Source: a virus. Taken from it: a stretch of DNA of 26,295 nucleotides. The notes under the pieces are model-generated. The model was not told where the DNA came from and made no database searches. It saw only the letters and a program-made list of their open reading frames with translations. The translations under genes and the position numbers were made by a program. Below, one piece after another: positions 2,763 through 7,617 of this stretch. Where the stretch lies: positions 1 to 26,295 of IMG/VR virus record IMGVR_UViG_3300037247_000633; one strand, given 5' to 3'. Within the stretch, counting starts at the first letter, position 1; every line of letters starts with the position of its first letter.

Positions 2763-3536
2763 ATGGCAGGTCAAACATGCGTTGCAACGCAGTATTTCAG
2801 TGGTCAGGGCCCAGTGCTCCTGGCAACGCGCGATCCCAGTACAGGAGCCCCCGAGGGTTTTCTGCCCGTGGGGAACGTGTCGTCATTGGTCATCGCAATC
2901 GAGCGCGAGGAGTTTGAGCACAAAGAGTCCTGCACAGGGGCCCGTGCCATCGACCTCACGATCACCCAGGAGATTTCGGCGACTGTCACCATGGTGATGG
3001 AGTCGATCAACAGGGAAAACTTGGCGCTCGCATTGTTCGGCACCGAGGCAGCGATTACCGCTGGTGCGGTGGTCGCCGAGCAGCTCATCGCGCGCCACGA
3101 CAAGTTCGTGCCGCTGGCGCATATCAAGGTCAGCGCGATAGTCGTGGAGCCCAGTGGTGGTGGTGTGCCCTTTACCCTGGGCACCGACTACGAGGAGAAC
3201 CTGAAGTTCGGCACCATCTGTGTGCTGAGCACTGGCACGATCTTGGATCTTGCGGCCATCGAGGTGGATTACAGCTTCGCTGCCCAGGAAGAGATCCAGG
3301 CTATCACCTCCAGCACGCCGCCCGAGCGGGCGATGCGCTTCGAGGGGTTGAACACTGCCACAGACCCGAACAAGGAGCTGTTGGTCGACGTGTTCCGGTT
3401 CGCGGCTGCGCCGCTCGCCGAGCTTGCCCTGATCCTGGACGAGATCACGCAGATGAGCATCGAGGGTGATGCGCTGGTCGATCCGTTCAAGCCGACGACC
3501 GGCTCACAAATCTTCGAGGTCACGAAGGTCGTATAA
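2763..3536 (+). CDS. Major tail tube protein
   Basis: A 257-residue protein likely to form the hexameric tail tube. It begins MAGQTCVATQYFSGQGPVLL and continues with long beta-strand segments containing VGNVSSLVIAIEREEFEHKES (residues about 37-57), a pattern typical of tube proteins in which an 'evtl-x-x-e-x-e' strand follows 'lGnv'. The rest is beta-rich with one helix (ETVNRENLALALFG-like region near 80-95). Position supports the call: tail terminator before, terminator hairpin and chaperone pair after. AAGGGGGAA upstream of ATG 2763 is the ribosome site. Some siphophage tube proteins carry an extra domain; at 257 residues there is little room for one beyond the core. Confidence 0.75.
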   Translation: MAGQTCVATQYFSGQGPVLLATRDPSTGAPEGFLPVGNVSSLVIAIEREEFEHKESCTGARAIDLTITQEISATVTMVMESINRENLALALFGTEAAITAGAVVAEQLIARHDKFVPLAHIKVSAIVVEPSGGGVPFTLGTDYEENLKFGTICVLSTGTILDLAAIEVDYSFAAQEEIQAITSSTPPERAMRFEGLNTATDPNKELLVDVFRFAAAPLAELALILDEITQMSIEGDALVDPFKPTTGSQIFEVTKVV

Positions 3537-3657: not shown

Positions 3658-3678
3658 ACTCTAAGCGAGGAGGCAGAG

Positions 3679-4116
3679 ATGGGAATACTGAGTGAAGTGG
3701 CGGTCGCCACTGACACGGTTATCCTCAACAAGAACGGGGACAAAGGGGAAGTCAGAGGGCTGTCGTTGACCGACATCGGTCACCTGATGAAGGATCATCT
3801 GAAGGAAGTCAGCCAGCTATTTGAGGGGCGGATCAAGATCGAAGAGGTCGCTATCCAGTGGCCGGTGTTCGCGGCCAGGATCATAGCCATAGCCATGGAT
3901 GACCCAGACGCCTGGGAGAATGCCGCGAAGCTGAATGCCACGACACAGATCGACGCACTGATGAAGATCTGGGACCTTACGATCCTTGACGAGGACATTC
4001 TGGGAAAAGCGTACAGCCGTCTCACAAGCATCCTCAGCCGACAGGTCGTCCAGGCATCACCAGAATTGAAAAAGCCGACTGGCAAAGAGACTTCGTCGAG
4101 GCGGCCGAAGTCTTAA
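3679..4116 (+). CDS. Tail assembly chaperone, short form (lambda gpG-like)
   Basis: A 145-residue protein immediately upstream of the tape measure gene, with GAGGAGG before ATG 3679. The sequence has a beta start, VRGLSLTDIGHLMKDH (about residues 25-40), then a mostly helical body with SQLFEG and ending in a polar Lys/Ser tail (KKPTGKETSSRRPKS). The 'VRGLSL-x-D-I' plus 'LFE' pattern is known from chaperones of Gram-negative siphophages. The protein coats the tape measure and brings in tube subunits; it is not part of the mature virion in studied phages. A longer form is probably made by a -1 frameshift into the downstream frame ending at 4289. Confidence 0.78.
   Translation: MGILSEVAVATDTVILNKNGDKGEVRGLSLTDIGHLMKDHLKEVSQLFEGRIKIEEVAIQWPVFAARIIAIAMDDPDAWENAAKLNATTQIDALMKIWDLTILDEDILGKAYSRLTSILSRQVVQASPELKKPTGKETSSRRPKS
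4002..4008 (+). other. Candidate -1 slippery heptamer G_GGA_AAA
   Basis: In the chaperone frame the codons ctG GGA AAA give the canonical X_XXY_YYZ heptamer GGGAAAA, one base away from lambda's GGGAAAG. Slipping here would join 110 chaperone residues to 93 residues of the -1 frame. The -1 frame is open from 3990 to the stop at 4287-4289. No obvious strong downstream stem was seen. Confidence 0.5.
4068..4074 (+). other. Alternative -1 slippery site G_AAA_AAG
   Basis: Codons ttG AAA AAG lie near the end of the short chaperone. The A-site AAG can re-pair as AAA; the P-site match is weaker because the first base is G. Slipping here would give 132 + 71 residues, with the fusion reading KKADWQRDFVEAAE. 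CGAC (4076-4079) and GTCG (4095-4098) could form a weak stem downstream. The same heptamer occurs in frame in gene 263, so it is not sufficient alone. Confidence 0.4.
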
Positions 4117-4289
4117 TGGCCTCAGGTCACGGCGAGACCGTGATGAGGTGGCCACTGAAGCGGCTGATGATATTCTCCTGGCTTGCATCGAAGAGACGCA
4201 GGCGGGAGATGGTGGAAGATATGAACGCCTTCAGGCTTGCCATGCACGCCGATAAAAAACAATTCGCGAGGGCAGTAAAGGATGGTTGA
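4116..4289 (+). CDS. Tail assembly chaperone extension (lambda gpT-like)
   Basis: This frame overlaps the stop of the short chaperone (taATG) and the start of the tape measure by 8 bases. From ATG 4116 it gives 57 residues, but the same frame is open upstream to 3990. The part before the ATG also reads like protein (ADWQRDFVEAAEVL), so it is best read as the C-terminal part of a frameshift fusion of 203 residues. It is helical and basic (LASKRRRREMVEDMN, then HADKKQFARAVKDG). In lambda the T part recruits tube protein while the G part binds the tape measure. Independent initiation at 4116 is possible but no strong ribosome site is visible. Confidence 0.7.
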   Translation: MASGHGETVMRWPLKRLMIFSWLASKRRRREMVEDMNAFRLAMHADKKQFARAVKDG

Positions 4290-7200
4290 CGCCCGTCTTG
4301 AAGTATTGATCGTCGCCAAGGACCAGTTCCGGCGCGTTCTGCGTGGTATCAACGAGACCGTGAACCGGGTCCGGACAGGGGTCCGGGCGCTCAACAGAGA
4401 GCGCACGAATCGTCTTCAGACGGCATTCGTGACCCTGAGAAATCGTGCACGCCAGGTGGGAGCCGCAATCCAGGTCCTGGGGCAGAGGCTACGGGCTATA
4501 AATCGGGTTACGTTCGGCAGGGCAATAGCAGGTTTCAGGGCCCTGAGAGCGAGTATGAGAGGAGCCACGGCACAGGCGGGGGCTCTGAGGGGGGCCCTTG
4601 CCCCGTTCATAGGGGCCGCAGCGCTGATTCTAGGCATTATCTCGGCTACCCGGGTACTGGCGGGCTTTGGGCAGCAGATGGCGGCTGTACGGGCCATCAC
4701 AGGGGCCACAGAGCAACAGTTCGCACTGCTTGAGGAGGAGGCTCGCCGGTTGGGGGCCACCACTCGATTCACAGCGCAGCAGGCGGCTGATGGCCTGGAG
4801 TTCCTAGCCCGGGCTGGTTTCAGCGCCGAGGACGCCACGGAGGCCCTGGAAGGCACCCTGAACCTGGCCTCCGCGGGTATGCTAGATCTGGCATCTTCCG
4901 CCGACATCGTATCGAACGTCATCCAACAGTTTGGGCTTGATACTGATCAAACTAATCGCGTGGTGGATGTCCTGGCTACTACCGCGGCGAACTCCAACAC
5001 GAACGTACTCCAGCTCGGTGATGCCTTCAAGTTTGTAGGCCCCATTGCGAGGGCCTTGAATATCGACGTTGAGGACACCTCGGAGCTGTTGGGGTTGCTG
5101 GGTAATGCGGGCATCCAGGCGAGCAACGCTGGTGCCGGTCTTCGTCGGGCGTTTTTCGGTCTGATCAATACCACGCCTAAGGCCGAGAAGGCTCTGGCTG
5201 AGCTTGAGTTGACGACGGAGGACGTTCGGCTGACCGGCGAGAATACGGCCGATGTGTTCCGGCTGTTGGGTGAGCGGGGACTGACCGCGGCCCAGGCCGT
5301 GCAGATCTTCGGTATTCGTGGATCGACCGTGGCCTTGTCATTGGCCGAGGCAGCGAAGCAAGGTAACAGTCTGGCGGAGGCCATCGCAAACTCCGAGGGG
5401 GAGGCGAAGCGTATCTCCGAGGTTATCGAAGACACGCTCATAGGCGACTTCAGGCGGCTGATTTCGGCTTTCCAGGAGGTTATCCTGCAGGCGGGAGAAT
5501 CGGGGCTCACAGGCGGGCTGAGGACCCTCTTGAGGGGGTTGACGACAATCGTCCAGGCCCTAGATGGCACGGCTGAGACCGCTGACAAGGTGGGGGGTGC
5601 GTTTGGGGCTATCGCGAAGGCCGTGGCCGCTGTTATCACGATCTTCGAGACGTTGTCCGAGCTGGGGGTGGTAGAACGCATCCTTTCCCCGCTAGTAGCG
5701 GCTCTGGAGAACATTGCGGAGCTGATAGAGGGTATCGCGGCCAGGTTTAGAGAGCTTGGGGCTATACCCGCGGACACGGCGGATGCAGTGACAGCCGGTG
5801 TGGACATAATACGCAAGAAGTTTAAGGATCTTTCTGATCTGAGTGCTCTGGAGGCGTTTATCGCTGGCCAGAAGACCATCTTGCAAGGGTTTAACGTAGA
5901 GATTGTGGCATTACAAAAGAAGCTGGGTGAAGACCTCAGCAGAGAGGACAGAGCACAGACCTTGCGGAGGCTTCAGGCCTTACGGACTTCGCAGCAGAGA
6001 GAGGTGGGTATCATCGTCGGGGCGAATGTCCTGCGCAGGGAACTGATAGCGGCCGGGGGTGAGGAAGAGACCGCAGCTAGGAAAGTGGTCAACGATAAGT
6101 CTATAGCTGACATCACGGCAGACAATGAGGCCCGTCTAGCCTTGCTGGAGGAGCGGGTCAAACTTTCAGTAATAGAAACGGCGCGAGAAGTAGCCGCATT
6201 TAAGAATGCCGCGGCAGAGATTTCGGCGATTGACAAGCAAAGGGCAGCCGCTGGTCTCGCGCCGCTTCAGGATGGCTTGAGGGCCAGGCAGGATCTACTT
6301 GAGCGGGCGCTGGATGCTGAGATTGCAGCCCAGCGAGCGCAGATCGGTAGAATTGCGGAGATAGCAGAGCTGCGGGTAGCGGCGGCCCCCACTGAGGATG
6401 TCGAGGGGATCAGGACTGCTGCCGCCGCTGAGTTGATCAAGGCTGAGACAAAATTGAACGCCTTGATCAGTCAACAGGTAATACAATCGGCTGATTTTGG
6501 GGCTCAGACGGCAAAGGCGGCGACCGACCTGACTAGATTAGTCCAGGCTGCTACGAGGGTAGTGGCTGGGACCACAGTCGTCCAGGATTTTACTGCGATC
6601 CGGGAGCGGCTGGAGGCGGACTTCAACAAGACCATCAGGAACCTGACAGTCTCGGCCGACCAGGCCAAGATATTTGAGAAGGCTCTCGATGTGAGGGCTG
6701 CGGATGAGGCTATCAGGCAGGTTGAGGAAGCTGTCAGGGCGTCAAATGAGCGCCTGTCCAGGGACGAGGAACTTCTAGCGGCTCAGCGAGCAACGCGACA
6801 GATTACGCAGCGGGAATTTATCGACAGAACGGCAGAAGCCCAGGCGCGGTCATTCGAAGAGCAACTTGAATTTGTGAGGCAGCTTCAGGAGCTAGATCCT
6901 GGGTTATTTTCACAAGAGCAACTGGATCGGATCACTCTGTTAGAGGCTCGGATCATACAGCTCAGGGAGGTTATAACCCCAGAGATCGAGGCCCTTACGT
7001 CGGCATTCCAGCGAGCAGGTGAAGAGTTTTTTCAGGACCTTATCAGCGGGACTCTAACCGCGGAGGAGGCGTTCAAGAAGTTCGCGCAGAGTATTATTGC
7101 GCAGATCCAGAAGATCATCATCCAGCAGCTTGTGCTCAAGGCTGTCCAGGCTAGTTCTGGGGGCATCGGGGCCATAGGGGCGGCTATCACGGCCAGGGAT

Positions 7201-7617
7201 GGAGGGTTCATTCAGAAGTTTGGAGCGGGTGGCCCGGTCAAAGGCCCGGGCAGCGGACGCTCAGATAGTGTCCCGGCTCGCCTGTCAGCGGGAGAGTTCG
7301 TGATGCCCGAGCATATCACCAGGAACTGGCGCGGTGTCCTGGAGGTGATGCGCGCCGGTAGGTTCGGAGCGTTCCTGAAGGGGCAGAATATCAACTTGCG
7401 AGGGATCACAGTCCCCAGGCTCGGAAGGTTCCAGGGGGGTGGGGTTGTAGAGCCACCCCAGACGACTACGGCTGGGGGAGAGCAGCGCAGCATACGGATC
7501 ATCAACTCGATTGATCCCAGTCTGCTGAACAATTTCTTGAGCAGTAGCGAAGGTGAGCAGGTACTGCTGAACATCATCGGGCGCAACCCCGAGAACATCA
7601 AGAGGATTCTGGCATGA
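4282..7617 (+). CDS. Tail tape measure protein (TP901 family)
   Basis: An 1111-residue protein that sets tail length and probably passes into the host envelope during DNA entry. Residues 1-105 are helical and Arg-rich. A hydrophobic segment (about 106-128, PFIGAAALILGII) follows. Residues about 125-370 match the TP901 tape measure core: FGQQMAAVRAITGAT, LGATTRFTAQQAADGLEFLARAGF, and later TSELLGLLGNAGIQASNAG with FGIRGS. Long Glu/Arg/Ala/Gln-rich helices run from about 510 to 950. Near 980-1030 the end has GGPVKGPGSGRSDSVPARLSAGEFVM-type residues (here KGPGSGRSDSVPARLSAGEF), common at tape measure C-termini. No peptidase or lysozyme motif was recognised. GAGGG 9 bases upstream serves ATG 4282, which overlaps the chaperone extension. 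Confidence 0.93.
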   Translation: MVDARLEVLIVAKDQFRRVLRGINETVNRVRTGVRALNRERTNRLQTAFVTLRNRARQVGAAIQVLGQRLRAINRVTFGRAIAGFRALRASMRGATAQAGALRGALAPFIGAAALILGIISATRVLAGFGQQMAAVRAITGATEQQFALLEEEARRLGATTRFTAQQAADGLEFLARAGFSAEDATEALEGTLNLASAGMLDLASSADIVSNVIQQFGLDTDQTNRVVDVLATTAANSNTNVLQLGDAFKFVGPIARALNIDVEDTSELLGLLGNAGIQASNAGAGLRRAFFGLINTTPKAEKALAELELTTEDVRLTGENTADVFRLLGERGLTAAQAVQIFGIRGSTVALSLAEAAKQGNSLAEAIANSEGEAKRISEVIEDTLIGDFRRLISAFQEVILQAGESGLTGGLRTLLRGLTTIVQALDGTAETADKVGGAFGAIAKAVAAVITIFETLSELGVVERILSPLVAALENIAELIEGIAARFRELGAIPADTADAVTAGVDIIRKKFKDLSDLSALEAFIAGQKTILQGFNVEIVALQKKLGEDLSREDRAQTLRRLQALRTSQQREVGIIVGANVLRRELIAAGGEEETAARKVVNDKSIADITADNEARLALLEERVKLSVIETAREVAAFKNAAAEISAIDKQRAAAGLAPLQDGLRARQDLLERALDAEIAAQRAQIGRIAEIAELRVAAAPTEDVEGIRTAAAAELIKAETKLNALISQQVIQSADFGAQTAKAATDLTRLVQAATRVVAGTTVVQDFTAIRERLEADFNKTIRNLTVSADQAKIFEKALDVRAADEAIRQVEEAVRASNERLSRDEELLAAQRATRQITQREFIDRTAEAQARSFEEQLEFVRQLQELDPGLFSQEQLDRITLLEARIIQLREVITPEIEALTSAFQRAGEEFFQDLISGTLTAEEAFKKFAQSIIAQIQKIIIQQLVLKAVQASSGGIGAIGAAITARDGGFIQKFGAGGPVKGPGSGRSDSVPARLSAGEFVMPEHITRNWRGVLEVMRAGRFGAFLKGQNINLRGITVPRLGRFQGGGVVEPPQTTTAGGEQRSIRIINSIDPSLLNNFLSSSEGEQVLLNIIGRNPENIKRILA

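Follow-up and report, generated by a model that had tools for sequence, protein, structure and literature searches.

A probable programmed -1 frameshift at a conserved slip position in the predicted tail assembly chaperone gene of a metagenomic phage

The predicted chaperone locus and its relatives

The window, i.e. the whole stretch of DNA analysed, is a viral contig of 26,295 bases. The features of interest, with their two neighbouring genes, are as follows:

2763-3536, plus strand: major tail protein gene, upstream neighbour (phrog_807, E = 5e-66)
3679-4116, plus strand: G, the zero-frame product, a predicted tail assembly chaperone of 145 aa plus stop (PF23789, phrog_5260)
4002-4008, plus strand: putative slip site G_GGA_AAA (homologous position in 17 contigs, canonical in 15; 0 substitutions in 84 sites)
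4002-4289, plus strand: T extension in the -1 frame, predicted from the conserved -1-frame protein of relatives, the substitution pattern and a profile match to cultured phages
4039-4056, plus strand: PTGRPG, a motif conserved in the -1 frame, between the candidate heptamers (PTGSPG in L003 and L006, ITGxxG in other lineages)
4068-4074, plus strand: G_AAA_AAG, second candidate of the first-pass annotation, judged incidental (GAACAAG in L003, GATAAAC in L006)
4116-4118, plus strand: ATG overlapping the G stop (aligned codon a start in 4 of 17 contigs; no conserved T start)
4282-7617, plus strand: tape measure protein gene, downstream neighbour (phrog_1533, E = 1.5e-72; PF10145)

G terminates with the TAA at 4114-4116. 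The -1 frame is open over 3990-4289 and closes with the TGA at 4287-4289 (the first-pass annotation had given 4287, the first base of this stop, as its end point), so that the end of T is overlapped by the tape measure gene, which starts at 4282. Two heptamers are in frame for a -1 slip, GGGAAAA (4002-4008) and GAAAAAG (4068-4074); whichever of them serves as the join, the GT fusion is 203 residues long. In TAATG (4114-4118), the G stop and the ATG at 4116 overlap. The opening of the -1 frame, both heptamers, this ATG and the 203-residue products had all been listed in the first-pass annotation and were found correct when the sequence was read again.

The G protein matches the Pfam family PF23789 Pre_tape_measure with 74 bits (cut-off 27) and the tail protein family phrog_5260 with an E value of 6e-21. 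The gene order (major tail protein, G/T, tape measure protein) is that of PF23789 G-T pairs, and the T extension aligns with the T frames of cultured phages with an hhalign probability of 98.4 (E = 6e-15, 74 columns). On the grounds of profile, position, T homology and slip codons, we assign the predicted G/T products to the PF23789 G-T pairs.

The metagenomic set comprised 17 distinct contigs, i.e. the window and 16 relatives (L021, identical to L020, was omitted). Further relatives were collected by searching with the major tail protein; L034 and L035, found in this manner, were omitted, the ORF next to the tail gene being unlike G, as was L042, for which a different ORF had been taken in place of G. 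A profile search of genome contigs using the G alignment returned no relative. The nearest relative, L003, is 93% identical to the window in G and the next, L006, 53%. The slip codons of the metagenomic set share one column of the protein alignment. In the alignment of the distant set, which covers 7 of the 15 cultured-phage records, most slip codons also fall in one column, two Vibrio phages being shifted against the rest by a few columns. In L036 to L044, the slip position was assigned by local motif, without alignment. As a side observation, two contigs from one sample, L007/L017 (IMGVR_UViG_3300005663_000155) and L003 (IMGVR_UViG_3300005663_000264), may be parts of a single phage genome that was broken up during assembly: the end of one lies close to where the major tail gene ends, and the start of the other lies inside that gene.

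A slip position common to the relatives

All 17 distinct contigs have a slip position at the G codons homologous to those of 4002-4008, and in 15 of them the heptamer is canonical: A_AAA_AAG in seven, G_GGA_AAA in four, and G_GGA_AAC and G_GGA_AAG in two each. L030 (G_GGG_GAG) and L033 (G_GTA_AAG) are non-canonical. The slip position is likewise present in 15 cultured-phage records, 13 of them canonical (A_AAA_AAG 8, A_AAA_AAA 1, A_AAA_AAC 1, G_GGA_AAC 2 and G_GGA_AAG 1), the other two being Rhodobacter phages with G_GAA_AAG. For Seifer and RcPeripeteia the annotations give joined frameshift products, and that of JC01 carries a G-T note. At this site L003 retains CTGGGAAAAGCG and L006 TTGGGAAAAAC. 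Over 12 pair comparisons, no substitution was seen in the 84 sites of the heptamer, against flanks differing by up to 47%. The first-pass annotation had proposed comparing homologues for heptamer conservation; the outcome is that close relatives keep the 4002 heptamer and do not keep that at 4068.

Non-canonical slip positions were seen at 3674 in L033, 2569 in L030, 1800 in L009 and 1500 in L044, with the sequences G_GTA_AAG, G_GGG_GAG and G_GAA_AAG; such members may shift by slippage of one tRNA only.

The window sequence by itself is less telling. Shift-prone heptamers occur twice in 8047 in-frame codon positions of its genes, one occurrence being that at 4002, and synonymous resampling of the overlap yielded a shift-prone heptamer in 12% of the trials and G_AAA_AAG in 9%. 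Neither heptamer is thus significant from the single sequence; it is conservation that tells 4002 and 4068 apart. An A_AAA_AAG at 2708-2714, in frame near the end of a Lys-rich ORF (2550-2759), was considered as another frameshift site and rejected: there the -1 frame stays open for 13 codons only.

Coding constraint in the -1 frame and the competing readings

When substitutions were sorted by zero-frame codon position, the counts for positions 1/2/3 were 246/120/484 upstream of the slip site; within the overlap they were 40/61/45 and past the G stop 156/447/252. The 12 pair comparisons share members, so that these counts are descriptive and carry no p-value. The pattern switches to that of the -1 frame, which we read as coding constraint on T. 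This bears on the alternative explanation that the two frames are one gene split by a sequencing or assembly error. A single contig cannot by itself exclude an indel, but the two-frame layout is present in all 17 distinct contigs as well as in cultured phages, and each frame has its own codon-position pattern; we regard such an error as almost certainly not the cause.

The constraint also helps to locate the join. Between the two candidate sites, the PTGRPG motif and its counterparts are conserved in the -1 frame (no PTGxPG or ITGxxG was seen in L018, L019, L032 and L033), and the zero-frame codon phase is not conserved over 4039-4056. The motif is read only after a shift at 4002 and would be lost by slippage at 4068. 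Could the shift nonetheless occur at 4068 only, GGGAAAA at 4002 being there by chance? The window and L003 differ three times between the sites, each time silently in the zero frame and with a change in the -1 frame, so that this pair alone shows no -1 constraint. Three changes are few, however, and over 4039-4067 L006 keeps 6 of 9 residues of the window in the -1 frame against 2 of 9 in the zero frame (in the half nearer site 1, it keeps 2 of 9 and 5 of 10, respectively). Conservation, moreover, holds for the first site and fails for the second, which leaves a shift at 4068 only with next to no chance of being right.

The possibility that no frameshift takes place, and that a separate 57-aa T is started at the ATG at 4116 through coupling with the G stop, draws on the TAATG overlap, which is typical of coupling and is also present in L003. 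Among the 17 contigs, however, only four have a start codon at the aligned position, no start codon was found near that position in nine relatives, and in several the G stop is far from it. Conservation of the T segment sets in upstream of the ATG (the first-pass annotation had noted plausible -1-frame protein there, and it is indeed conserved in relatives), so that a 57-aa T would miss part of it. Since the ATG is not conserved, a separately started T would not be the solution adopted by the family, and we consider it extremely unlikely here.

There remains joint use of both sites, which the first-pass annotation had raised as a way of tuning the G:GT ratio. Slippage at 4068 would keep the conserved T core (DWQRDF onward). 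In E. coli, A_AAG alone is at about background level, and a strong stimulator can make it shift (PMC4066793); a hairpin, GAGACTTCG...CGAAGTCTT (4087-4114), which begins 12 nt past the 4068 heptamer and ends just 5' of the ATG at 4116, folds better than shuffled sequences (z = -2.6). In a related clade, besides, two canonical heptamers 45 nt apart occur in five contig records. Against joint use, the 4068 heptamer is gone from both nearest relatives, L003 and L006. The hairpin is nearly unchanged in sequence in L003 and not present in L006, and it is no evidence for the second site because L003 retains it without that site; it may hinder initiation at 4116. As for the related clade, its second heptamer is missing in L023, L027 and L029. 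We therefore hold it very unlikely that the two sites together set the G:GT ratio. There is similarly little chance that a minor site was gained at 4068, with the hairpin as its stimulator, so that GT would also be made in another isoform, with its own linker, and the ratio would shift.

In frame, G_AAA_AAG occurs four times among the window genes, three of them in a Lys-rich ORF (263-709). The heptamer is lost in L003 and L006 and lies downstream of the point where the -1-frame constraint begins; on this comparative evidence, we take it for a by-product of neighbouring Lys codons and not for a programmed site. Of the earlier proposal, then, the programmed -1 frameshift in the chaperone stands, with a conserved slip position and constraint on the T frame in its favour, and ratio tuning by two sites is not supported, the 4068 heptamer being absent from L003 and L006.

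The clade mentioned above deserves a separate description. In L020 (and also in L021, L024, L025 and L028), an A_AAA_AAG at 3658 is followed at 3703 by G_GGA_AAA or G_GGA_AAG, both in frame. The second of these heptamers is probably incidental, as it is a consequence of ITGK being encoded in the -1 frame and is lacking in the three contigs named.

Proposed mechanism and comparison with known systems

Taken together, the comparative evidence supports well a programmed G-T frameshift. It very probably operates in the manner of lambda G/GT at the single site G_GGA_AAA (4002-4008), with no programmed role for 4068. Comparison among relatives provides the slip position, its conservation and the coding constraint on T; the slippage itself, its rate and the chaperone role are predicted. 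Most ribosomes would translate G (145 aa) as far as its TAA, at 4114. The others, fewer in number, would slip back by one base on G_GGA_AAA, where GGA is decoded in the P site by tRNA-Gly and AAA in the A site by tRNA-Lys. The tRNAs would re-pair on GGG and AAA, a change from GGA to GGG in the P site with AAA kept in the A site being a standard two-tRNA -1 slip, and the -1 frame would be read to the TGA at 4287 to give the 203-aa GT, i.e. G up to 4002 plus the -1-frame extension. If lambda is a guide, the tape measure protein would be coated by many copies of G and few of GT, the T part recruiting the major tail protein.

A stimulatory structure was sought after the 4002 site and not found: the z score of the window is about 0 to +1, and nothing is consistent across relatives. 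Downstream stimulators of -1 frameshifting are common and not required. An SD-like GAGGA at 3991, upstream of the site, was considered and discarded; it is present in L003 and absent from L006.

In E. coli, the heptamers that shift best include G_GGA_AAG and A_AAA_AAG; G_GGA_AAA was called inefficient in earlier studies and, in a discussion of IS elements, more efficient than G_GGA_AAC (PMC4066793). Either efficiency would be acceptable, as GT is needed at a low rate.

The window would accordingly be annotated with one 203-aa fusion joined at 4002-4008, with neither a separate 57-aa gene nor two-site tuning. For the chaperone family, the slip position appears fixed at the same G codons, with a heptamer alternating between A_AAA_AAN and G_GGA_AAN. 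Such a fixed-position rule, which is consistent with existing knowledge of G-T frameshifts, should be useful when annotating uncultured phages.

Among the known systems, the PF23789 G-T frameshifts of the Casjensviridae (Klebsiella phage Seifer, Cronobacter phage JC01) have their gene order in common with the window; G is homologous, the T frames match by profile and the slip site lies at the same G codons. The differences are the heptamer (G_GGA_AAA in the window, A_AAA_AAG in Seifer and JC01) and the major tail protein, of 257 aa in the window. The haloarchaeal viruses HCTV-1, -2 and -5 also use a G-T frameshift and differ in having archaeal hosts. The slip heptamer of lambda is G_GGA_AAG. 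With lambda G/GT, the window has in common a short chaperone and its -1 fusion upstream of the tape measure gene; in lambda G and GT stand at a ratio of about 30:1, and T connects the tape measure complex with the major tail protein (PMC5009743). The Pfam and PHROG matches of the window proteins included no family of lambda G or T. The G/GT described here is predicted to work like that of lambda but, on these matches, is not classed with lambda G/GT by sequence.
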